IMG/VR virus record: IMGVR_UViG_3300043410_001471
Span: 126,001-190,000 of that record
Strand: one strand, 5' to 3'
DNA from: a virus
DNA length: 64,000 nt
Positions 3,198-62,078 of this stretch are shown piece by piece; the stretch's first letter is position 1, and each line of letters opens with the position of its first letter. A model generated the notes under the pieces. That model did no database searches, was not told the origin of the DNA, and saw nothing but the letters and a program-made list of their open reading frames with translations. The position numbers and the translations under genes are program-made.

Positions 3198-4808
3198 ATG
3201 GACTTAAAAAAATTAATGAACGGCGCTAACCCACAAAGCATTATGCTTGAGCAAACTAGAGGTTTGAAAGCAAAGTGGGAAAAAACTGGATTGTTAGAGA
3301 ACGCAGGTTCTGAAACATCTAAGCATGGTATGGCAGTAATGTTAGAAAACCAAGCTAAACAATTATTGGATGAGGCTACAAGAACAGGTACTTCTTCAGG
3401 TTCTGAAGAGTGGGCTGGTGTTGCGTTACCTTTAGTAAGAAGAATCTTCGGTTCTATCGCTTCTAAAGAGTTCGTTTCAGTACAACCTATGAACTTACCT
3501 TCAGGTCTTATTTTCTACATGGACTTCAAATATGGTTCAAACCCAGCTGGTAATCCAAACTTCACAGGTTCATCTTTATTTGGTGATGGTGGAACTTTTG
3601 GTAAAGATTCTCAATCTCCAGCAGGAAACAAATTAGGTTCTACTCAAGCTACAACAGGTGGTTTGTATGGAGCTGGTAGATTCGGATATACAATCAATAA
3701 CGCTACTGCTGCACAAGCTGCAACTGTTGCTTCAGCATCTTTAGCAGATATCGATTGGGATTTATCTGACGCTACTGTTTCTGCATCTTATGCAGCTAAC
3801 ACATTGAAGAAAGTAACTGTGGCTTTACCATCAGATGCTGACTTCCAAGGTGTAAGAGCATTCGAATTAACTTTATTATCAGGTTCTTCAACTTTCTTCC
3901 CTCAATACACTACTAAGAATGGTTCTAACGTGGAATTCGTTGCAACTGTGACTGGTACAGGTTCAGCAGGTGCAAATGGTTCATCTTTAGCATACCATGT
4001 ACAACCTACTGATATCTCTCGTGGAGATTTCGAAGATAGAGGAGCTGATTTAGCGATTCCTGAAATCGAATTAGAATTGAAATCTGAGCCTATCGTGGCT
4101 AAGACTCGTAAGTTGAAAGCAATCTGGACTCCAGAATTAGCGCAAGACTTAAATGCATACCACTCTGTTGATGCAGAAGCGGAATTAACACAAATGTTAA
4201 GTGAGTACATCTCTTTAGAAATCGACTTAGAAATCTTAGAAATGTTACAACAAAACGCTTTCACAACTGATTACTGGTCTGCAAAAGTTGGATACGATTG
4301 GAATGGTGCAGGTTTCTCTATTGATTCAGACGCTGCAGCAGCATCTGCTTACACTAAGAGCACTTGGTATCAAACTTTAGGTATCAAATTACAAAAGGTA
4401 TCTAACAAGATTCACCAATTAACAATGAGAGGTGGAGCTAACTTCTTAGTAGTTTCTCCAAATGTAGCAACTATCTTAGAATCTATGAATGGTTTCTCTG
4501 CAAATCCTGGTAAAGATGCTTTACAATTTGCTGCAGGTGTAACTAACATTGGTTCTATCTCAAATAGATACGATGTTTACAAAAACCCTTACATGACTGA
4601 GAATGTAATCTTATTAGGTTTCAAAGGTTCTAACTTCTTCGAAACAGGAGCAGTTTACGCACCATATGTACCATTGATTATGACTCCATTAGTTTATGAC
4701 CCAACTAACTTCACTCCAAGAAGAGGTGTTATGACTAGATACGCTAAGAAAATCGTAAGACCAGAATTTTACGGTAAGATTATCGTTGATGGTTTAAACA
4801 CTCTTTAA
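3198..4808 (+). CDS. gp23: Major capsid protein, gp23-like
   Basis: Forms the hexameric shell lattice of the head. 536 residues against 521 in T4. The N-terminal ~60 residues are a probable cleaved propeptide; LLDEA at 56-60 places a candidate cut after E59, comparable to the T4 cut after residue 65 (inferred). EWAGVALPLVRRIFGSIASKEFVSVQPM and the C-terminal block with YDPTNFTPRRGVMTRYAKK are hallmarks of T4-type capsid proteins. It follows the scaffold gene and is closed by a strong terminator. Codons are noticeably more C-ending than in the fibre genes, consistent with high expression. Confidence 0.96.
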   Translation: MDLKKLMNGANPQSIMLEQTRGLKAKWEKTGLLENAGSETSKHGMAVMLENQAKQLLDEATRTGTSSGSEEWAGVALPLVRRIFGSIASKEFVSVQPMNLPSGLIFYMDFKYGSNPAGNPNFTGSSLFGDGGTFGKDSQSPAGNKLGSTQATTGGLYGAGRFGYTINNATAAQAATVASASLADIDWDLSDATVSASYAANTLKKVTVALPSDADFQGVRAFELTLLSGSSTFFPQYTTKNGSNVEFVATVTGTGSAGANGSSLAYHVQPTDISRGDFEDRGADLAIPEIELELKSEPIVAKTRKLKAIWTPELAQDLNAYHSVDAEAELTQMLSEYISLEIDLEILEMLQQNAFTTDYWSAKVGYDWNGAGFSIDSDAAAASAYTKSTWYQTLGIKLQKVSNKIHQLTMRGGANFLVVSPNVATILESMNGFSANPGKDALQFAAGVTNIGSISNRYDVYKNPYMTENVILLGFKGSNFFETGAVYAPYVPLIMTPLVYDPTNFTPRRGVMTRYAKKIVRPEFYGKIIVDGLNTL

Positions 4809-4847
4809 TCTTTGAGTAGATTTTAGAATCTTAAACTAAAAAATAAA

Positions 4848-4878
4848 AAAAGGGGAAGTAGAAATACTTTCCCTTTTT
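4848..4878 (+). terminator. Intrinsic terminator after the capsid gene
   Basis: A 13-bp stem (4848-4860 with 4865-4877, one G-U wobble), loop GAAA (4861-4864), then a T-run. The apical GTAGAAATAC is identical to that of the terminator after the tail tube gene. Confidence 0.9.
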
Positions 4879-4882
4879 TATT

Positions 4883-4892
4883 TATATTTATA
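4883..4892 (+). promoter_or_regulatory. Late-type promoter motif TATATTTATA
   Basis: Perfect match to the motif, 30 bases upstream of the next ATG and directly downstream of the capsid terminator. Confidence 0.65.
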
Positions 4893-4922
4893 TGTAATTA
4901 ATCATCTAAAATTAAAAAATAA

Positions 4923-5159
4923 ATGGCATATCCAGAATCACAATATACAGTAAGTGGAACAGGTCCTACATTTTTGGCAACGGATAGTGAAGTATCTTCA
5001 TTAAGTGGAAGTATTGCAACTAAAATGGCAAATACATCATTCACATATATCACAGGTTCAGCATCAGCAGCTTGGAACGATGCATCTGCATCTGCAGCAG
5101 GAGTAGCAGTTGGTGGAATGTATCACTCACAAGGAATAGTTAAAGTTAGATTAGTATAA
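4923..5159 (+). CDS. Small capsid- or virion-associated protein candidate
   Basis: 78 residues rich in Ser, Ala, Gly and Thr, starting MAYPESQYTVSGTG and ending GGMYHSQGIVKVRLV. The N-terminus is nearly the same as that of the following gene (MSYPQSQY), suggesting a common docking tag. The stop overlaps the next start by one base (TAATG), so the two are translationally coupled. Position right after the major capsid gene and a late-type motif suggest a head decoration or head-fibre component; this is inference. Confidence 0.6.
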   Translation: MAYPESQYTVSGTGPTFLATDSEVSSLSGSIATKMANTSFTYITGSASAAWNDASASAAGVAVGGMYHSQGIVKVRLV

Positions 5160-5800
5160 TGTCTTATCCACAATCTCAATACGATAATTATCAAAAAGCA
5201 AAAACATTATCTATATACACATTAGATAATGCAGACCATATTCTTACAAAACAAGAAGATGGTATGATGGGATATATTGCCGTATCTGATATAACATCTT
5301 ATATCAATTTAAGAACTGCACAAAAATTAGGTTGGGCACGATATGATGATACATTATACACAACATCATCGGCATTCACCGCAAGTTATACTAATGGTGA
5401 ATATACTTTACCAAACAATGCAGGAAATACAATAGAAACACACTTACATTCTACTATTTCATTTTACAATAGTGGTTCTCAAAAAATCCAAGTTGAAAAT
5501 GAAGGTGATGTTTATATGTGCACTGTCGTATTCAAAGCAAAAACTCCAAATGCAAATTCTTGCGTTTTAAGGTTACAAATGGATAGTACGGGTGACACTC
5601 CATATCAAAGAGTTGGTAAAGATTTATTTTTTGGAAAAGGAAATGATGAGTGGCATGATTTTCACGAAGTTTTTCAATGGTATGCCGATGCAGATTTTGT
5701 AACAAACGGAAATAGATGGAAAATCGAAGCAGTTGGTGCAAACGCATACATATCCAATGTAATATTCTTCATACAACGAACTCAAAACCATTCGGTATAA
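5159..5800 (+). CDS. Virion protein candidate, possible head decoration
   Basis: 213 residues, mostly predicted beta structure, with the N-terminal MSYPQSQYDNYQKAKTL. The rest looks like a beta-sandwich (alternating hydrophobics, about 95-205), which would suit a decoration or carbohydrate-binding domain. No known domain is recognised. It is coupled to the preceding small gene through TAATG and closed by a perfect terminator, so the pair forms its own late transcription unit between capsid and neck genes. Confidence 0.55.
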   Translation: MSYPQSQYDNYQKAKTLSIYTLDNADHILTKQEDGMMGYIAVSDITSYINLRTAQKLGWARYDDTLYTTSSAFTASYTNGEYTLPNNAGNTIETHLHSTISFYNSGSQKIQVENEGDVYMCTVVFKAKTPNANSCVLRLQMDSTGDTPYQRVGKDLFFGKGNDEWHDFHEVFQWYADADFVTNGNRWKIEAVGANAYISNVIFFIQRTQNHSV

Positions 5801-52248: not shown

Positions 52249-53289
52249 ATGGATAATTTTAAAGAATATATTGTAATAGATGATTCGGCTAAAGCTTTAT
52301 TAATAAATCGACCAATTCTTGTATTTTTTTCAAATGAAGAAATTGATGAATTATTAAAGTTTTATGAACAAAATTATAGAGAGTATAAGTTGATTTATTG
52401 TGAACGCGGTGAACCACTTACACACTCATCTATATTGCATTTGTATAGAATACATGAATTCTTTTTAGAAAACAAAATCAATACTAAAAAGTTTCATATT
52501 CTATATGAAAATAGAAGTAAAGAATATGAAAGTTTATTGGGATTTTTTCAATTTAATTTTTATTATTATCCATTTCATTTAAATTTTGTAACGCCGCCTA
52601 CATATTTTAATTCCGGTGAATATCCATTTCCATTGGATAGAAATTTTGAAAAACATTTTTTAATGTTAAATAGAACCGGAAAAGAACATAAGTTAAAATT
52701 TAAAACATTTTTTGATTCTAATAATTTAAAAGATGTATCGTATTATTCATTTTTATGGTTGAATGAACGCAATTTTGAAGAAAATTATATCCAATCTACA
52801 CACGCTAATCATGATGAATTGATTGACATATATAAAAATACGGCAATTAATGTACTGAATGAATCAAAATATTCATCGGAATTATTATCAATACCATATA
52901 CATTTATATCAGAAAAGACTTTTAGAGCATTGGCATTTCCTAGACCATTTATTGTAATAGGACAAAGACATACTTTAAAAAATTTACAAAAAATGGGATT
53001 TAGAACATTTTCTGATATAATAGATGAAAGTTATGATGAAATGAATGATTCGGAAAGAATGGATAAAATACAGGAAATAATTTTAGATTTATCGAAAAAA
53101 TCAAAAGAAGAAATTTATACAATGTGGGAGAAATGTATAGATAATTACGAACATAATAGAAAATCAATATTCTATCATGCAAGGCAAATGAATGAAAATT
53201 TTAAAACAATATTCCCAAATGAATATAAGATGATGAATATGCATTATTTATCATCAATTGAAAGAACTAAAAATTTAAAAGAATGGTAA
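52249..53289 (+). CDS. Glycosyltransferase-like protein of a marine-phage family
   Basis: 346 residues. FLMLNRTGKEHKLKFKTFFDSNNL and later TFISEKTFRALAFPRPFIVIGQRHTLKNLQKMGFRTFSDIIDESYD are typical of a phage and giant-virus family whose C-terminus resembles GT10/exostosin-type nucleotide-sugar binding (SEKTFR-A-PFIV). Substrate unknown; a modified DNA base or a virion glycan are possible. Strongly AT-rich relative to nrdA. Overlaps the thioredoxin start by 7 bases. Confidence 0.5.
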   Translation: MDNFKEYIVIDDSAKALLINRPILVFFSNEEIDELLKFYEQNYREYKLIYCERGEPLTHSSILHLYRIHEFFLENKINTKKFHILYENRSKEYESLLGFFQFNFYYYPFHLNFVTPPTYFNSGEYPFPLDRNFEKHFLMLNRTGKEHKLKFKTFFDSNNLKDVSYYSFLWLNERNFEENYIQSTHANHDELIDIYKNTAINVLNESKYSSELLSIPYTFISEKTFRALAFPRPFIVIGQRHTLKNLQKMGFRTFSDIIDESYDEMNDSERMDKIQEIILDLSKKSKEEIYTMWEKCIDNYEHNRKSIFYHARQMNENFKTIFPNEYKMMNMHYLSSIERTKNLKEW

Positions 53290-53546
53290 CAGTAAAGAAA
53301 TTTTCCGCAGCATGGTGTGGTCCATGTAGAGCATTAGCTCCAGTTATGAATGAAGTAAAATCTCAATTTTCAAATGTAGTATTTGAAGATTACGATGTAG
53401 ATGTTGCATATGATGAAGCAACAAAATACGGCATCCGTTCAGTACCAACAGTTGTTATTGAAAAAGATGGTAAAGAAGTTGAAAGATTTGCGGGAGCAGC
53501 AGCAAAGATGACTTATGTAAATGCATTGAATGAACATTTAAAGTAA
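53283..53546 (+). CDS. trxA: Thioredoxin
   Basis: 87 residues, a minimal thioredoxin. The active site WCGPC is at 11-15 and the cis-proline motif SVPT near 57-60; EVERFAGA matches the usual C-terminal turn. Probably the electron donor for the ribonucleotide reductase encoded just upstream. Confidence 0.93.
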   Translation: MVTVKKFSAAWCGPCRALAPVMNEVKSQFSNVVFEDYDVDVAYDEATKYGIRSVPTVVIEKDGKEVERFAGAAAKMTYVNALNEHLK

Positions 53547-53556
53547 AATAAATTTG
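53526..53556 (+). promoter_or_regulatory. Host-type promoter TTG-N20-TAAATTTG
   Basis: TTG (53526-53528), 20 bases, TAAATTTG (53549-53556). It lies at the end of the thioredoxin gene and points into the HTH/Mom-like unit. Confidence 0.6.
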
Positions 53557-53588
53557 TGATTATCAAAAAAATTGGTTATATTAGACAT

Positions 53589-53789
53589 ATGTTAAGAGGA
53601 GAATCGCATCCAATGCATAAATTGACTGAAGAGCAGATAATGCAAATCAGAGAATTATACAAAGTGGGTCATAGAAATATCAAAGTTATTGCTAGGAACT
53701 ACAAAGTATCTCCTGCTAACATTAAGAAAATAGTTACAAACCAAACGTGGACACACATGATAAAGTGGCCGTATGAAAGAACTAAATAA
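53589..53789 (+). CDS. Orphan helix-turn-helix protein, homing-endonuclease-tail type
   Basis: 66 residues from ATG 53589; a GTG at 53556 would fall inside the promoter. RGESHPMHKLTEEQIMQIRELYKVGHRNIKVIARNYKVSPANIKKIVTNQTWTHM matches the HTH commonly found at the C-terminus of phage HNH endonucleases, but no HNH motif is present. It may be the remnant of a homing endonuclease or a small regulator. It overlaps the first Mom-like gene by 17 bases. Confidence 0.6.
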   Translation: MLRGESHPMHKLTEEQIMQIRELYKVGHRNIKVIARNYKVSPANIKKIVTNQTWTHMIKWPYERTK

Positions 53790-54537
53790 GTTATATTGTG
53801 ATACATCGAAATTAATCGTAAGAGTAGTAAACAAAAATGTAGCAAAGGATATCATCGTTAATAACCATTATAGTGGGATATGGACGAAGGTATCCTATGC
53901 TATTGGATTGTTTTATGTTTCCAATGATGAACACAAATTCTTTGGTGGAGTAAACGAACAACTTATTGGAGTAGCGTGTTATGGTGACCCGGTGGGTAGA
54001 CACTCCGGCGCATCTATATCCGGAAATTTGGATAGAACGGAAGTTTTAGAACTTACCCGTTTATTTGTATTTGATGGTTATGGTAGTAATATTGAAAGTT
54101 GGTTCGTTGGACAAACTTTTGAGTGGTTAAGAAAAAACGCACCACACATCAAAGCATTGGTATCGTATTCAGACCCAAAAGCAGGACATTTAGGAACTGT
54201 ATATCAAGCAACTAATTGGATTTATCAGGGTAATAAGATTCGACCTAACGATAGTTGGTCTTTTAAATGGAGTGAAATAGATGAATGGCATCATAGTAGA
54301 ACTTCATATGTAAAGTATGGTACTAATGACCCAAAGATAATTCAAACAATGGTAGCATCGCCATTTTGGATTAAAAAAGAACCCCGAAAACATCGATATG
54401 TTTATATACTTTTGAATGGTAGAGAACGAAAAAAATTATTGAAATCGTTAAAGTATCCATCATTACCATATCCAAAAGCAAACGAAGAATTTATTGAAGA
54501 AATACATAAATTAGAACCAATTGAAAGTAGAAAATAA
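53773..54537 (+). CDS. Mom-like DNA-modification protein 1 (GNAT-type fold)
   Basis: 254 residues. VLELTRLFVFDGYGSNIESWFVGQTFEWLRKNAPHIKALVSYSDPKAGHLGTVYQATNWIYQG (about 91-153) carries the SY(S/A)D...GH-G-YQA-NW-Y-G signature of the phage Mu Mom family, which adds a carbamoylmethyl group to adenine. The C-terminal KHRYVYILL ... PYPK block is shared with the next gene. It may modify phage DNA against host restriction, but the chemistry need not be identical to Mom. Upstream lies the HTH gene; downstream is a paralogue. Confidence 0.65.
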   Translation: MKELNKLYCDTSKLIVRVVNKNVAKDIIVNNHYSGIWTKVSYAIGLFYVSNDEHKFFGGVNEQLIGVACYGDPVGRHSGASISGNLDRTEVLELTRLFVFDGYGSNIESWFVGQTFEWLRKNAPHIKALVSYSDPKAGHLGTVYQATNWIYQGNKIRPNDSWSFKWSEIDEWHHSRTSYVKYGTNDPKIIQTMVASPFWIKKEPRKHRYVYILLNGRERKKLLKSLKYPSLPYPKANEEFIEEIHKLEPIESRK

Positions 54538-55324
54538 GTTATATTGTGATACCAGTAGAGTATCCATTAGAGAAATCAATAGTAATGTAGCCAAAGAGAT
54601 TATTGTTAAAAAGCACTACACTCACGCTTGGACTGCTTGTAGATATGCGTTAGGTATATTCTATAAAACTGATAATGAAAATGTAATCGGTGATGATGAA
54701 ATTCTAATCGGTTGTATGGTTTATGGATTTCCCGTAGGAGCAAGAGCATCCACATCCGTTTGTGAGGGATTAACCAAAGATAACATTTTGGAATTGACTC
54801 GTTTATATTGCGATGATGGGTATGGTTCGAATATTGAATCATACGCATTGGGACAATCGTTTAAATGGTTCAGAGAAAATGATAAAGATATCAAAGTACT
54901 CATTTCTTATGCAGATAACGGACAAGAACATTTAGGTGGTATTTACCAAGCAACTAATTGGATTTATCAGGGATTAAATACAGATATCGCCCTAATGCCA
55001 AACTATGGTATTTCATTATCAAATGACCCATTTAAATGGATTCATAGTAGGACTGTATTTACAAAATGGGGTAGTGGTAATCTGGAACATCTTCGTAGAG
55101 AAATTGGTAAGGATGGTTACAAAGAATTTTGGAGAAGGGAAGAACCACCAAAGCATAGATACATACAAATCATAGGAGCAGATAAAAAGGAGAAAAAGGA
55201 TTTAATTAAGAGATTAAAACATGAGGTTAGACCTTATCCTAAAAATGCTAGAGAATACAATAAAGGTGTTCAGCACCACACTACAATTGAACCAGATACC
55301 GAAATTTCGGTTAAATTCTGGTAA
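54521..55324 (+). CDS. Mom-like DNA-modification protein 2, paralogue
   Basis: 267 residues, probably starting at TTG 54521 (MKVENKLYCDTS), which aligns with the ATG start of the first copy (MKELNKLYCDTS). It shares ILELTRLYCDDGYGSNIESY, SYADNGQEHLGGIYQATNWIYQG and the KHRYIQII ... PYPK end. The GH of the signature is EH (136-137) here, so specificity or activity may differ. A 20-base stretch around the starts and one of more than 20 bases encoding QATNWIYQG are identical between the two copies, pointing to duplication or gene conversion. Confidence 0.62.
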   Translation: MKVENKLYCDTSRVSIREINSNVAKEIIVKKHYTHAWTACRYALGIFYKTDNENVIGDDEILIGCMVYGFPVGARASTSVCEGLTKDNILELTRLYCDDGYGSNIESYALGQSFKWFRENDKDIKVLISYADNGQEHLGGIYQATNWIYQGLNTDIALMPNYGISLSNDPFKWIHSRTVFTKWGSGNLEHLRREIGKDGYKEFWRREEPPKHRYIQIIGADKKEKKDLIKRLKHEVRPYPKNAREYNKGVQHHTTIEPDTEISVKFW

Positions 55325-57181: not shown

Positions 57182-58285
57182 ATGAATAAATTTTGGGATT
57201 CCGAAATAGGTAATTTTGATAAGAAGGTATTAGTAGTACCCAATTATACTCACTTTGGTGAAGGTAAAAATATAAACGCAGATTCGTTTGTGTTAGTTAT
57301 GAAATCATTTTTAGATAACACTAATTATGATAATTTACAATTTATAATTCCATATCCAAATGGATATATGCCAACGGATTTTATGAAGTATAAAAATGTA
57401 AAACTTATTAATATGGGGAATGTTTCTACATTTCCCCCATTAATGAGAATTCAATTCCCCGATTCTGCATTTAAAAAGATATTTTCTGAAGAAGGAATTG
57501 ATATCATTTGGTCACATTTGCCGGAATGGACTAATCAATTATTAATCGTTCGTAGATACAACACAGTAACTCAACCTGTTTTGGGTTATTGCCATTGGTG
57601 GGAGATTCCTGAAAATGGTGCATATAATCATAATTCCTTTTGGGCAAATGTGCAAGGTATGTTGAAAATGAGTGTATGTGGGGTAAACTCACAATGGGTT
57701 AAGAATTTAGTATTAAAAAGAGCAAGTGGGTTTTTGAATAAAGAACAATTAGAAAAATTAGATACAATCATTCAGCCTTGGTATTTAGGATGCGATGAGT
57801 GGCAAGAAGGAATTGTAAAACCAAAAACTATTTTATTCAATCATAGAGCAGATGGGTATACCGGTGCTGATTGGTTTTTTGAAGAGATGGATAAGTTGTG
57901 GGAACAAAGACAAGATTTTAAAGTTCTTACATCCATAGCTAGTGTTTCAAAACCATATACGGAATCAATCCGACATCCTAATAGAGAACATTATAAACAA
58001 AATGTAGGAAGCGCTGATATTGGTGTTGGATGTTTTACAAAATATTCAGCATGGAGTATGAGTACAACTGATGGGTTGAGTATGAATGTACCATATATTT
58101 TACCAAAAGGATTGTGCTATGAAGAAATGGTTGGAGAAGATTATCCATTACTTTATAATGGTAAAAAGGAATTTGTAAAAATGTTAGTAGATTACTTAGA
58201 TGGTAAAATAGAAAGACCTAACACAAAAAAAATGGCTGAGAAGTTATATTGGAAACATAGTTTAGAAAATTGGAAAATTATATAA
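57182..58285 (+). CDS. GT-B glycosyltransferase-like protein
   Basis: 367 residues. VLVVPNYTHFGEGKNINADSF resembles an N-terminal GT-B loop; CHWWEIPENG and VNSQWVKNLVLK are typical of GT4-like enzymes, and TTDGLSMNVPYILPKG sits where the nucleotide-sugar site would be. The usual EPFG motif is not obvious, so acceptor and donor are unknown. It shares the MNKFWD/MKFWDT start style with the next gene, which begins 1 base after its stop. Confidence 0.6.
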   Translation: MNKFWDSEIGNFDKKVLVVPNYTHFGEGKNINADSFVLVMKSFLDNTNYDNLQFIIPYPNGYMPTDFMKYKNVKLINMGNVSTFPPLMRIQFPDSAFKKIFSEEGIDIIWSHLPEWTNQLLIVRRYNTVTQPVLGYCHWWEIPENGAYNHNSFWANVQGMLKMSVCGVNSQWVKNLVLKRASGFLNKEQLEKLDTIIQPWYLGCDEWQEGIVKPKTILFNHRADGYTGADWFFEEMDKLWEQRQDFKVLTSIASVSKPYTESIRHPNREHYKQNVGSADIGVGCFTKYSAWSMSTTDGLSMNVPYILPKGLCYEEMVGEDYPLLYNGKKEFVKMLVDYLDGKIERPNTKKMAEKLYWKHSLENWKII

Positions 58286-58286
58286 T

Positions 58287-59513
58287 ATGAAATTTTGGGA
58301 TACAGGTGAACAAACCAACACAGAAGTATTTGACTACGATGAGATGAAAAAGAAGTTCATTGAGAACTTGGATTATCTTAAAGAAATGTCAGTAGAAGAG
58401 CAAACTCTATACAAAAAATGGATGGAGTGGAATGAAGATTTAATTGGTAATATGCGAAAATTACCTGCTTTACAACAACATTATGATTCGTTGTGGAAAC
58501 CGACTGATATTATGGATAAGGAATTAACGATAAAAGAAATCGAAGGATTGCAACCATATATTGAAGTTGTAGAAGATAATCCAAAAGAATCTACTCGTTG
58601 GACTGAAATCCGTAGATTAATTCATACTATGGAGTTTCAGGCAAATCCAGGTCGTAATGTAAAGTGCTATGTTAAAGATAGAACAAGCGGAAAGATATTA
58701 GGACAAGTTTGTTTAGGTTCAGACATTACATCATTGGGTGTGAGAGATGCATACATTGGTTGGCAGAAAGAAGATAAGTTTCAAAATGGTAAATTGAATT
58801 GTACTACTATTGCAACTACAATCGTATCAACCCAACCATTTGGATATAATTTCTTAGGTGGTAAGTTAATTGCAGCATTGGCAACTGCACCTGAAGTTAG
58901 AGATTACTGGCAAAAGAAATACAACAATCCATTGATTGGAGTAGGTACAACATCATTGTATGGTATTCACTCACAATACAATGGTATTCCTCATTTCAAA
59001 ACATTGGGAGAATCTAAAGGTAAGATTTCTACAAAGCCAGATGATAAGGTATACGACCCATGGCATCAATGGTTGAAAGAAAATCGTTCTGAATGGTATA
59101 AGCAACACATTATGGATGAGAGAGAACGAAATGGTGCTAATATGGGATACGATAGAAACGGACCTGTAAGTGGAATCAAACAAAAGATTATTCAGGCAAT
59201 TTTTAAAGAGTTGGGAATCAAAGGAAACGCTTATGACCACGGATTCCAAAGAGGTGTGTATTTCGCACAAATGTATGAGAATGGTAATGAGTTCCTTTGT
59301 TCTAAAATCGAAGAGAAGGATTTAGTTCTTAAAAAGAAATTCGCTGATGGTAATGATTATACTATCAAATGGTGGAAAGATAAAGCAATTAAGAGATATA
59401 CTAAATTGCATGAAGAAGGTAAAATTAAACCCGAAGTTTTATTCTATATTGATGCAATTGGAATGACTTGGGAACAAATGAAAGAACATTACTTAAAAGA
59501 AGTGGGAAGATAA
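58287..59513 (+). CDS. DUF4338/DruA-like protein
   Basis: 408 residues. NPGRNVKCYVKDRTSGKILGQVCLGSDI, RDAYIGWQKEDKFQNGKLNCTTIATTIVSTQPFGYNFLGGKLIAALATAPEVRDYWQKKYNNPLIGVGTTSLYG resemble DUF4338, the family of DruA from the Druantia defence system and of proteins found in T4-like phages. The GKLIAALATAPEVRDYW and GTTSLYG stretches are the most telling. Catalytic activity is unknown. It ends 3 bases before the replicative polymerase gene, so a link to DNA modification or replication is plausible. Confidence 0.55.
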   Translation: MKFWDTGEQTNTEVFDYDEMKKKFIENLDYLKEMSVEEQTLYKKWMEWNEDLIGNMRKLPALQQHYDSLWKPTDIMDKELTIKEIEGLQPYIEVVEDNPKESTRWTEIRRLIHTMEFQANPGRNVKCYVKDRTSGKILGQVCLGSDITSLGVRDAYIGWQKEDKFQNGKLNCTTIATTIVSTQPFGYNFLGGKLIAALATAPEVRDYWQKKYNNPLIGVGTTSLYGIHSQYNGIPHFKTLGESKGKISTKPDDKVYDPWHQWLKENRSEWYKQHIMDERERNGANMGYDRNGPVSGIKQKIIQAIFKELGIKGNAYDHGFQRGVYFAQMYENGNEFLCSKIEEKDLVLKKKFADGNDYTIKWWKDKAIKRYTKLHEEGKIKPEVLFYIDAIGMTWEQMKEHYLKEVGR

Positions 59514-59516
59514 AAT

Positions 59517-62078
59517 ATGTATCAAAATATATACTACGAAAGAAGCAAGAATTTAATTCATCTATGGGATGATACCAATGGATACCAAACATTTCCATAC
59601 CGAAAATATGCCTACAAAAAAGACCCATATGGACAGCATCGTTCAATGTATGGGGATAAGTTATCTCGTATTTCAAAGTGGGAAAAGGATGAGGCCGAAG
59701 ATTTATTCGAATCGGATGTACCAGAAACAACGAGAGTATTGGTAGATATCTATGATAATGATTTACCATCAAAAGGACATACAGTATTAACATTTGACAT
59801 TGAGGTAGAAATGATATCAGGTCTACCAAACACACGAGAAGCTCAAAACGAAATCACAGCAATCGCAGCACACGATTCTATTACAAAAGAATATGAAGTG
59901 TTCGTATTAGATAAAGAAAGAAAAGTTAAAAACAATGCTACTAATTTTAGTAAAAACGGCAGAGAGGTTAAAGTACACATATTTGACAACGAAAGGAATT
60001 TATTATTTGCATTTCTTAATTATTACCAACAAGTTGACCCGACTATTCTAACGGGTTGGAACATTGATTTTTTCGATATTCCATATCTTTACAATCGTAT
60101 TAAGAATGTTTGTGGAGAGGGACATGCTAAGAGATTATCTCGTATCGGAGAAGCATTCTGGTCACCATATAGAGAGAAGTTTAGTTTTGGTGGTGTGAGT
60201 GTATTGGATTACATCAATTTGTATAAAACATACACATATACATTGGAAGCATCTTATACATTGAACTACATCGCTACCAAAGAATTGGGTAGAGGTAAGG
60301 TGGAGTATGAGGGAAGTTTGGATGATTTATTTGTAAACGATTTGGAGAAATTCATTGAGTATAACATTGTCGATGTGGAGTTGGTTGTAGCAATGGATGC
60401 CAAATTACAATTCATTGAATTATGTAGAGCCGTTTGTCACGCTGGATTTGTTCCATATGAAGATTACATATTTTCATCAAAGTGGTTAGAAGGAGCTTGT
60501 TTAGGATATCTTAAAAAGAAAGGATTGGTAGCAACCAATAAACCAAAAGATAGAAAGGAAAGAATGCAAGCTCTTAGAGATAATAACGAAGAGAAATTCA
60601 TTGGAGCATATGTAAAAGAACCTATCGTTGGTAAGTATGATTGGATTTATGATTTGGACTTAACATCTCTATATCCATCAATCATTATGACTTTGAATAT
60701 CAGTCCCGAAACAAAGATTGGTAAGATTCAGAATTGGGATGCTGAAGCAAATATCAGAGGGTTAGATACTACATACAAAGTAGTTGGTAAAGATGGTGAT
60801 ACTTATGAATATACGACTCAGGAACTAAAGGAAGTTATTAAGGATAGTAATTTAGGTGTTGCGGCAAATGGAGTTCTCTATTCACAAGATTCACCGGGTT
60901 TGATTGCCGATATCTTAAATGATTGGTTTCAAAAGCGTGTTGAGTTCCGTAAATTAGAAAAGAAATATGGTACGGAAGGTGATACTGAAAAGTATGAATT
61001 CTATGCTAAAAGACAGCTAGTACAAAAGATTCTTTTGAACTCAATGTATGGTGTATTGGGTTTACCAGCATTTCGATTCTATGATGTGGATAACGCTGAA
61101 GCAGTAACCCTAACAGGTCAAACTGTTATTAAGAAAACAGCAGAGATGGCAAACATCAAATATTGGAAAGAACTCGGAACTAAAGAGGATTATAATGTGT
61201 ACATCGATACTGATTCCATTTATATGATGGCAGAACCTTTGGTAAAACATAGATACCCTGAATATAAAACATTTGACCAAAATCGAATGGCTGAAGAGGT
61301 AAATACTATTGCCGAAGAAACTCAAACATTTTTGAACACATTCTATGATATGTTGGCTGAAAAGTTCTTCTTTATTCCAAAAGAGAAACATAGATTTGAG
61401 ATTAAGAAAGAATACATTAGTAAAGCAGGATTTTGGGTAGCAAAGAAGAGATATGCACAATGGATGATTCTAAAAAATGGTGTACCTTGTGATAAGTTGG
61501 ATGTTAAAGGATTGGATGTGGTTCGTTCATCATTTCCTAAAGCATTTCAGGACTTTATGGCTAAAATGTTGAAAGATATTTTAATGGGTAAGGATAACGC
61601 ATTTATGGATGAATCTTTATTGGATTTCAAAAAGAATATGATTAATCTACCTGTAAACAAAATAGCAAAGGGTGGAGCAATTAAGGAGTTAAGTAAGTAT
61701 GATAATGGTAGTTGGAGAAAAGATGGTGGAGAAGCTATCGCATCATTTGAAAAGGGAACACCTGCACACGTTAAAGCTGGAATCACTTACAATCGATTAT
61801 TAAAATTCTTCAATTGTCCATTTAAGCATGAACCAATTAGAGATGGTGATAAAGTAAAGTGGGTATATCTTAAAACAAATCCATTGGGATTAGATACTGT
61901 TGCATTTAAGGATTATAATGACCCAAAAGAGATTATGGATTTCGTAGAACAATATGTTGATAGAGATATGATTTATAAAGCAGAGTTGGAAAACAAAGTA
62001 GATGATTTCTATAACGCCTTAAAATGGAGTAAAGCATCAACCGAAGCACAAACCGCTAAAAAGTTTTTTAGTTTTTAA
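59517..62078 (+). CDS. gp43: Replicative DNA polymerase, gp43-like (family B)
   Basis: 853 residues (T4: 898). Proofreading exonuclease: Exo I TFDIEVE (D94, E96), Exo II TGWNIDFFDIPYL, Exo III YNIVDVELV. Polymerase: motif A DLDLTSLYPSIIMTLN (about 377-392), motif B KILLNSMYGVLGLPAFRFYD, motif C YIDTDS (562-567). All catalytic carboxylates are present. The C-terminal AKKFFSF could be the clamp-binding tail, fitting the clamp gene downstream. Confidence 0.96.
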   Translation: MYQNIYYERSKNLIHLWDDTNGYQTFPYRKYAYKKDPYGQHRSMYGDKLSRISKWEKDEAEDLFESDVPETTRVLVDIYDNDLPSKGHTVLTFDIEVEMISGLPNTREAQNEITAIAAHDSITKEYEVFVLDKERKVKNNATNFSKNGREVKVHIFDNERNLLFAFLNYYQQVDPTILTGWNIDFFDIPYLYNRIKNVCGEGHAKRLSRIGEAFWSPYREKFSFGGVSVLDYINLYKTYTYTLEASYTLNYIATKELGRGKVEYEGSLDDLFVNDLEKFIEYNIVDVELVVAMDAKLQFIELCRAVCHAGFVPYEDYIFSSKWLEGACLGYLKKKGLVATNKPKDRKERMQALRDNNEEKFIGAYVKEPIVGKYDWIYDLDLTSLYPSIIMTLNISPETKIGKIQNWDAEANIRGLDTTYKVVGKDGDTYEYTTQELKEVIKDSNLGVAANGVLYSQDSPGLIADILNDWFQKRVEFRKLEKKYGTEGDTEKYEFYAKRQLVQKILLNSMYGVLGLPAFRFYDVDNAEAVTLTGQTVIKKTAEMANIKYWKELGTKEDYNVYIDTDSIYMMAEPLVKHRYPEYKTFDQNRMAEEVNTIAEETQTFLNTFYDMLAEKFFFIPKEKHRFEIKKEYISKAGFWVAKKRYAQWMILKNGVPCDKLDVKGLDVVRSSFPKAFQDFMAKMLKDILMGKDNAFMDESLLDFKKNMINLPVNKIAKGGAIKELSKYDNGSWRKDGGEAIASFEKGTPAHVKAGITYNRLLKFFNCPFKHEPIRDGDKVKWVYLKTNPLGLDTVAFKDYNDPKEIMDFVEQYVDRDMIYKAELENKVDDFYNALKWSKASTEAQTAKKFFSF

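Follow-up and report, generated by a model that had tools for sequence, protein, structure and literature searches.

A conserved, class-diverged pair of Mom-family genes, one of them in a variable slot, in the replication region of a large T4-type phage

The window analysed here is a stretch of 64 kb, bases 126001-190000 of a 245,436-base IMG/VR virus record. It carries two overlapping genes of the Mom family, termed momA and momB, preceded by a small helix-turn-helix gene, HTH77. The features of the locus in window coordinates are as follows:

53283-53546, plus strand: thioredoxin-like gene (phrog_22, 3.3e-12), a syntenic and conserved neighbour
53556-53789, plus strand: HTH77, small helix-turn-helix protein; its end overlaps the momA start; constant left border of the slot
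53773-54537, plus strand: momA, 254 aa, ATG start, first class of the Mom family, SYSD-GH motif
53774-53804, plus strand: left copy of a 31-nt direct repeat at the HTH77/momA joint, 28 of 31 nt identical to 54522-54552
54205-54230, plus strand: first copy of a 26-nt identical stretch, QATNWIYQG codons of momA
54521-55324, plus strand: momB, 267 aa, TTG start, second class of the Mom family, SYAD motif; overlaps the momA end
54522-54552, plus strand: right copy of the 31-nt direct repeat at the momA/momB joint
54947-54972, plus strand: second copy of the 26-nt stretch, identical to 54205-54230
58287-59513, plus strand: DruA-family gene (PF14236, 4e-20), downstream of the pair, a syntenic and conserved neighbour
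59517-62078, plus strand: family B DNA polymerase (PF00136, phrog_262), syntenic, right flank of the region

HTH77 (PF02796, 4.3e-5) is found in synteny among the relatives with 69-92% identity. It overlaps momA by 17 nt, and momA overlaps momB by 17 nt as well. A profile search of the whole 245,436-base record gives exactly two Mom matches. Two further reading frames, 52249-53289 and 57182-58285, look glycosyltransferase-like by eye; they have no Pfam match and are variable between relatives.

The record encodes a major capsid protein, tail sheath, tail fibres, UvsX, DnaB, ribonucleotide reductase and a family B polymerase and is that of a T4-type contractile-tailed phage. Since its nearest cultured capsid relatives are the Microcystis phage Mel-JY01 (53.8%) and the Flavobacterium phage immuto (53.5%) and the closest cultured Mom is that of the Polaribacter phage P12002L (45% identity to momA, 43% to momB), the host is likely to belong to the Bacteroidota, as judged from these sequence relationships. 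A scan of bacterial genomes with A1 found no relatives, which is a weak negative with just two usable peptide patterns. No N6/N4 methyltransferase was found in the record with a PF01555 search. A thymidylate synthase gene (G000:222008-223054) was considered as a hint of a hydroxymethyl base. Its product carries LPFNIASY, which we take to be the form of ordinary thymidylate synthases, and gives no such sign.

Both proteins match the Mom family PF25680 with 9e-44 (momA, 150 bits) and 6.7e-44 (momB, 150.4 bits), the curated cut-off being 27.1 bits and the matches spanning positions 2-202 and 3-202 of the 202 in the profile. Both also match phrog_1384, 'Mom-like DNA modification protein' (momA 3.5e-52, momB 4e-48). 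An earlier sequence-only reading had placed two overlapping Mom-family genes at 53773-55324, and the open reading frames together with PF25680 and phrog_1384 bear this out. A two-row profile retrieves the Mu Mom structure 8bv8 from the PDB by sequence (1.8e-10). AlphaFold models of momA (pLDDT 90) and momB (pLDDT 88) both have 8bv8 as the top structural match, with 3.4e-13 and 6.9e-14, and other GNAT proteins follow only from about 2e-4 and 3e-4, some nine orders of magnitude worse; the global rmsd to 8bv8 is 8-9 Å, so that the match holds at the level of the fold and not in fine detail. The sequence-only reading had proposed to compare predicted structures with Mom, and in this comparison both models lie nearest to 8bv8 and not to ordinary acetyltransferases. 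That the two genes encode ordinary protein or small-molecule acetyltransferases is in our view highly improbable: the GNAT fold and the annotation of several homologues simply as 'acetyltransferase' would suit such a function, but the best matches in Pfam, PHROG and the structure search are all Mom, and the genes are located in the replication region.

The title of 8bv8 names an 'inactive mutant S124A', and its chain has alanine at the position that reads S114 in the Mu genome record, which points to an offset of ten between the two numberings. This serine is invariant in both classes, in 82 distinct contigs each, as are the residues corresponding in the alignment to Mu H48, Y49, R101, D139 and Y149. 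Most of these positions are invariant or nearly so also across 56 diverse Moms. Both Mom-family enzymes are apparently intact. Mu Mom converts adenine to a carbamoylmethyl derivative and has been reported to bind iron and acyl-CoA, and by homology each of the two proteins is expected to modify adenine. Mom activity has been described as an acyl transfer to the N6 of adenine (PMC7824862).

With Mu Mom (PF25680; 8bv8) the pair shares the family, the fold and the conserved residues including the mutated serine, and in both phages mom overlaps a small upstream gene. However, Mu has one mom and the window phage two copies. The upstream overlapping gene encodes the zinc-finger protein Com in Mu, whereas HTH77 is a helix-turn-helix protein without cysteines. 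The mom gene of Mu is expressed late and lies at the end of the genome, whereas the pair is situated among replication genes. The Mom of P12002L is different again, being a single copy in a small phage, adjoining a DNA methylase in another gene order.

The two proteins are 43% identical over 260 columns (E 8e-72), and the synonymous divergence of the genes is high (dS about 1.9). Median dN/dS values of 0.077 in the momA class and 0.057 in the momB class indicate purifying selection on both. In a maximum-likelihood tree of 82 rows momA and momB each form a clade (100/100), and momB joins a set of Moms from other phages (L225-L246), with momA left outside (99/95); a 54-row tree likewise unites momB with Moms of other large phages (98/94). 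The sequence-only reading had suggested a duplication; a recent one is not supported, given this dS value and the 98-99% support for the grouping of momB with the Moms of other phages. An AU test of momA and momB as one clade gave p 0.089, which is no formal rejection, so that an old duplication is a possible origin of the two sequences.

The stretches of identical DNA at the gene starts and at the NWIY motif, on which that suggestion was based, are indeed present. The longest exact runs common to both genes are 26 nt (54205, 54947) and 21 nt (53784, 54532). We rejected a conversion tract as the explanation of the 26-nt run, since the run largely follows from shared codon use: identity in this region is on average 23.9 of 27 nt between genes of the same contig and 23.1 of 27 nt in the all-versus-all comparison. 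Along the whole genes the synonymous identity within contigs shows no excess (0.519 vs 0.512). Over the first 12 codons it is 0.77 vs 0.71, a value reached in 0 of 2000 permutations, in which the shuffling ignores kinship. The proposed gene conversion therefore fails along the genes and holds at most locally, in the first codons.

The sequence-only reading had noted GH in the motif of the first gene and EH in that of the second. EH proved not to be a signature of the second gene: the residue preceding the histidine is G in all 82 momA sequences, and in the momB class it is E in 51, A in 22, D in 4 and other residues in the rest. Mu Mom has G-R at this position. What is fixed by class in this motif is SYSD (82 of 82, momA) versus SYAD (82 of 82, momB). 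Altogether there are 22-24 class-fixed differences, the lower figure being that for non-gap columns. Seven lie near the conserved active-site positions where 3.4 would be expected (p 0.035), a weak enrichment measured as distance along the sequence and not in space. The purifying selection in both classes together with the more than 20 class-fixed differences makes a functional divergence of the two sequences plausible.

Such a divergence might concern the chemistry, one enzyme adding another acyl-derived group or acting on another base. Class-fixed residues directly beside conserved ones (S/A before the aspartate, F/A two positions after the serine, V-S/C-R) speak for this, but every aligned Mu active-site residue is identical in both classes, and we know of no related enzyme with a different product. 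We therefore consider a difference in chemistry quite improbable, and prefer a difference in target contexts between two Mom enzymes.

Comparison of the gene order in the IMG/VR relatives shows HTH77, momA and momB followed by more genes, usually with druA among them, and after these by polB and the clamp. The pair is present in 13 of 14 large related contigs, and the 238-kb record G004 has momB only. Between HTH77 and momB the relatives are variable. Here momA overlaps or abuts momB or is separated from it by 69-2433 nt. In L047 the insert between momA and momB (4100-5603) comprises two genes, one of which encodes an N6/N4 DNA methyltransferase, and other contigs have a NUMOD3 homing-type gene (L067), a RimK ATP-grasp gene (L070) or small unknown genes at this place. 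In 11 distinct contigs momA is absent and HTH77 overlaps momB directly. In two further contigs (L138:5274-6029 and L102:5273-6001) a second DruA-family gene of 242-251 aa, shorter than the downstream one, replaces momA. Mom and DruA were compared as possible homologues, and no homology was detected (hhalign probability 0.5%). In L107, L112, L114, L118, L120, L130, L146 and L156 there is also a third Mom-like gene, only distantly related, which precedes the pair or momB by some 3-5 kb.

The 31-nt repeat, whose exact core is 21 nt, lies at both joints of momA, and the HTH77/momB joints of phages without momA have a closely similar sequence. The identical start DNA is therefore best read as a joint at which momA can be gained or lost, presumably by recombination. 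The start codon of momB is TTG where it overlaps momA and ATG, at the same aligned start, where it follows HTH77. The momB tree needs at least two changes in the presence of momA. That momA is absent, kept or replaced at one and the same spot suggests a swappable shield against DNA-cutting defences of the host. A more specific proposal, which we put forward tentatively, is that the gap between HTH77 and momB might serve as a slot for modification genes, into which momA, a DruA-family gene or nothing would be loaded by recombination at the repeated joint, altering the adenine contexts or marks as host restriction changes.

Wherever momB could be seen, momA was accompanied by it (118 of 118), and momB occurs without momA in 10 of 119 cases; the loci were picked by similarity to momA or momB and near-identical contigs are included, so that these counts do not represent independent events. 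The constant company of momB and the overlapping layout, which suggests coupled translation, would be explained if MomA were a partner of MomB, in a heterodimer or as a subunit changing its specificity, and not an independent enzyme. All aligned active-site residues are, however, kept in MomA, up to 2.4 kb separate the two genes in many phages, and at least two lineages have momB but no momA, by which the heterodimer considered in the sequence-only reading is disfavoured as an obligate state of MomB. On balance a partner role of MomA seems improbable.

Rather unlikely, too, is a redundant pair setting the same mark in the same contexts, as an extra dose or as a back-up under several simultaneous defences. 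Its strong points are the active site common to both classes and the fact that some phages manage with momB alone. There is also a published precedent for a gain from two similar enzymes in the alpha- and beta-glucosyltransferases of T4, where the second enzyme helps against combined defences (PMC13216743). These are likewise two DNA-modifying enzymes of similar purpose, but their chemistry and base differ from those of Mom and the analogy is one of purpose only. A dose effect would not need a divergence so old, in which both classes have held on to more than 20 class-fixed residues.

The genomes of these phages also avoid particular sites. In the 64-kb window GATC occurs 0 times where 238 are expected, and there is one occurrence in 239 kb of the genome, where GTTAAC, CTATAG, CTTAAG and GGTACC are almost completely missing as well. 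Mel-JY01, in which no Mom match was found, avoids GATC equally and also CTAG, so that the avoidance of GATC does not come from Mom. The near-total loss of GATC and other adenine-containing sites implies that a good many adenines lack effective protection, which argues against a global protection of adenine; it seems that the phage relies on both avoidance of sites and modification. Among palindromes the SAS contexts known from Mu showed no clear difference. The avoidance of GTAC was tried as a readout of MomA specificity and rejected, since phages with both genes and those with momB only differ (p 1e-5), yet close relatives with both genes share the avoidance, which may follow kinship. Among the related genomes (G000, G002, G003 and G004) GATC is missing in almost all, and GTTAAC, CTATAG, CTTAAG and GGTACC are nearly absent there as well.

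We propose, with a probability of roughly 0.55, that the locus is an operon whose upstream slot is exchangeable and that it encodes two Mom enzymes differing in their target contexts; both are predicted to mark adenine as in Mu and to act against restriction. MomA and MomB would each use the Mom active site and a cofactor of the acyl-CoA type and would attach a Mu-like carbamoylmethyl group to adenines in the DNA of the phage itself. Two contexts are most simply suggested by two enzymes with differing class-fixed residues, and MomA and MomB may thus target different sequences and together block more host restriction enzymes than either alone. MomB would be the core enzyme, and momA could be gained, lost or replaced through the direct repeat made up of the overlapping gene joints. 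Given the gene overlaps and the location between nucleotide-reduction and DNA-polymerase genes, co-translation of HTH77, momA and momB at about the time of replication is probable.

What is known of the chemistry and target rules of Mom comes, to our knowledge, mainly from a single enzyme, Mu Mom. With the natural diverged pair, and with the momB-only relatives as controls, one can test what determines the target choice of Mom and also why a phage would keep two of them. The slot further connects Mom with DruA: a gene of the Druantia DruA family (PF14236) lies downstream of the pair in the window, and another DruA-family gene can fill the place of momA. No publication on a conserved, class-diverged Mom pair with an exchangeable slot was found in a literature search of partial coverage. 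Several Moms per phage have already been reported, for the jumbo phage PA5oct. The published passage on PA5oct mentions five momylating enzymes, and thus more than one Mom-type gene per phage as here, and describes no conserved adjacent pair (PMC7824862). In our search PA5oct (L308, 122505-122912) had one PF25680 match only, weak and below the cut-off. Of 50,697 phage records none had two places matching either the momA or the momB protein, and with Mu Mom as query the phage records gave one place more than there were matching records. Two or three Mom matches were found in 6 of the 16 other environmental contigs searched. The P12002L-like contig L197 has an adjacent divergent Mom pair (211-942 and 944-1738) unrelated to that of the window, and also a third Mom.
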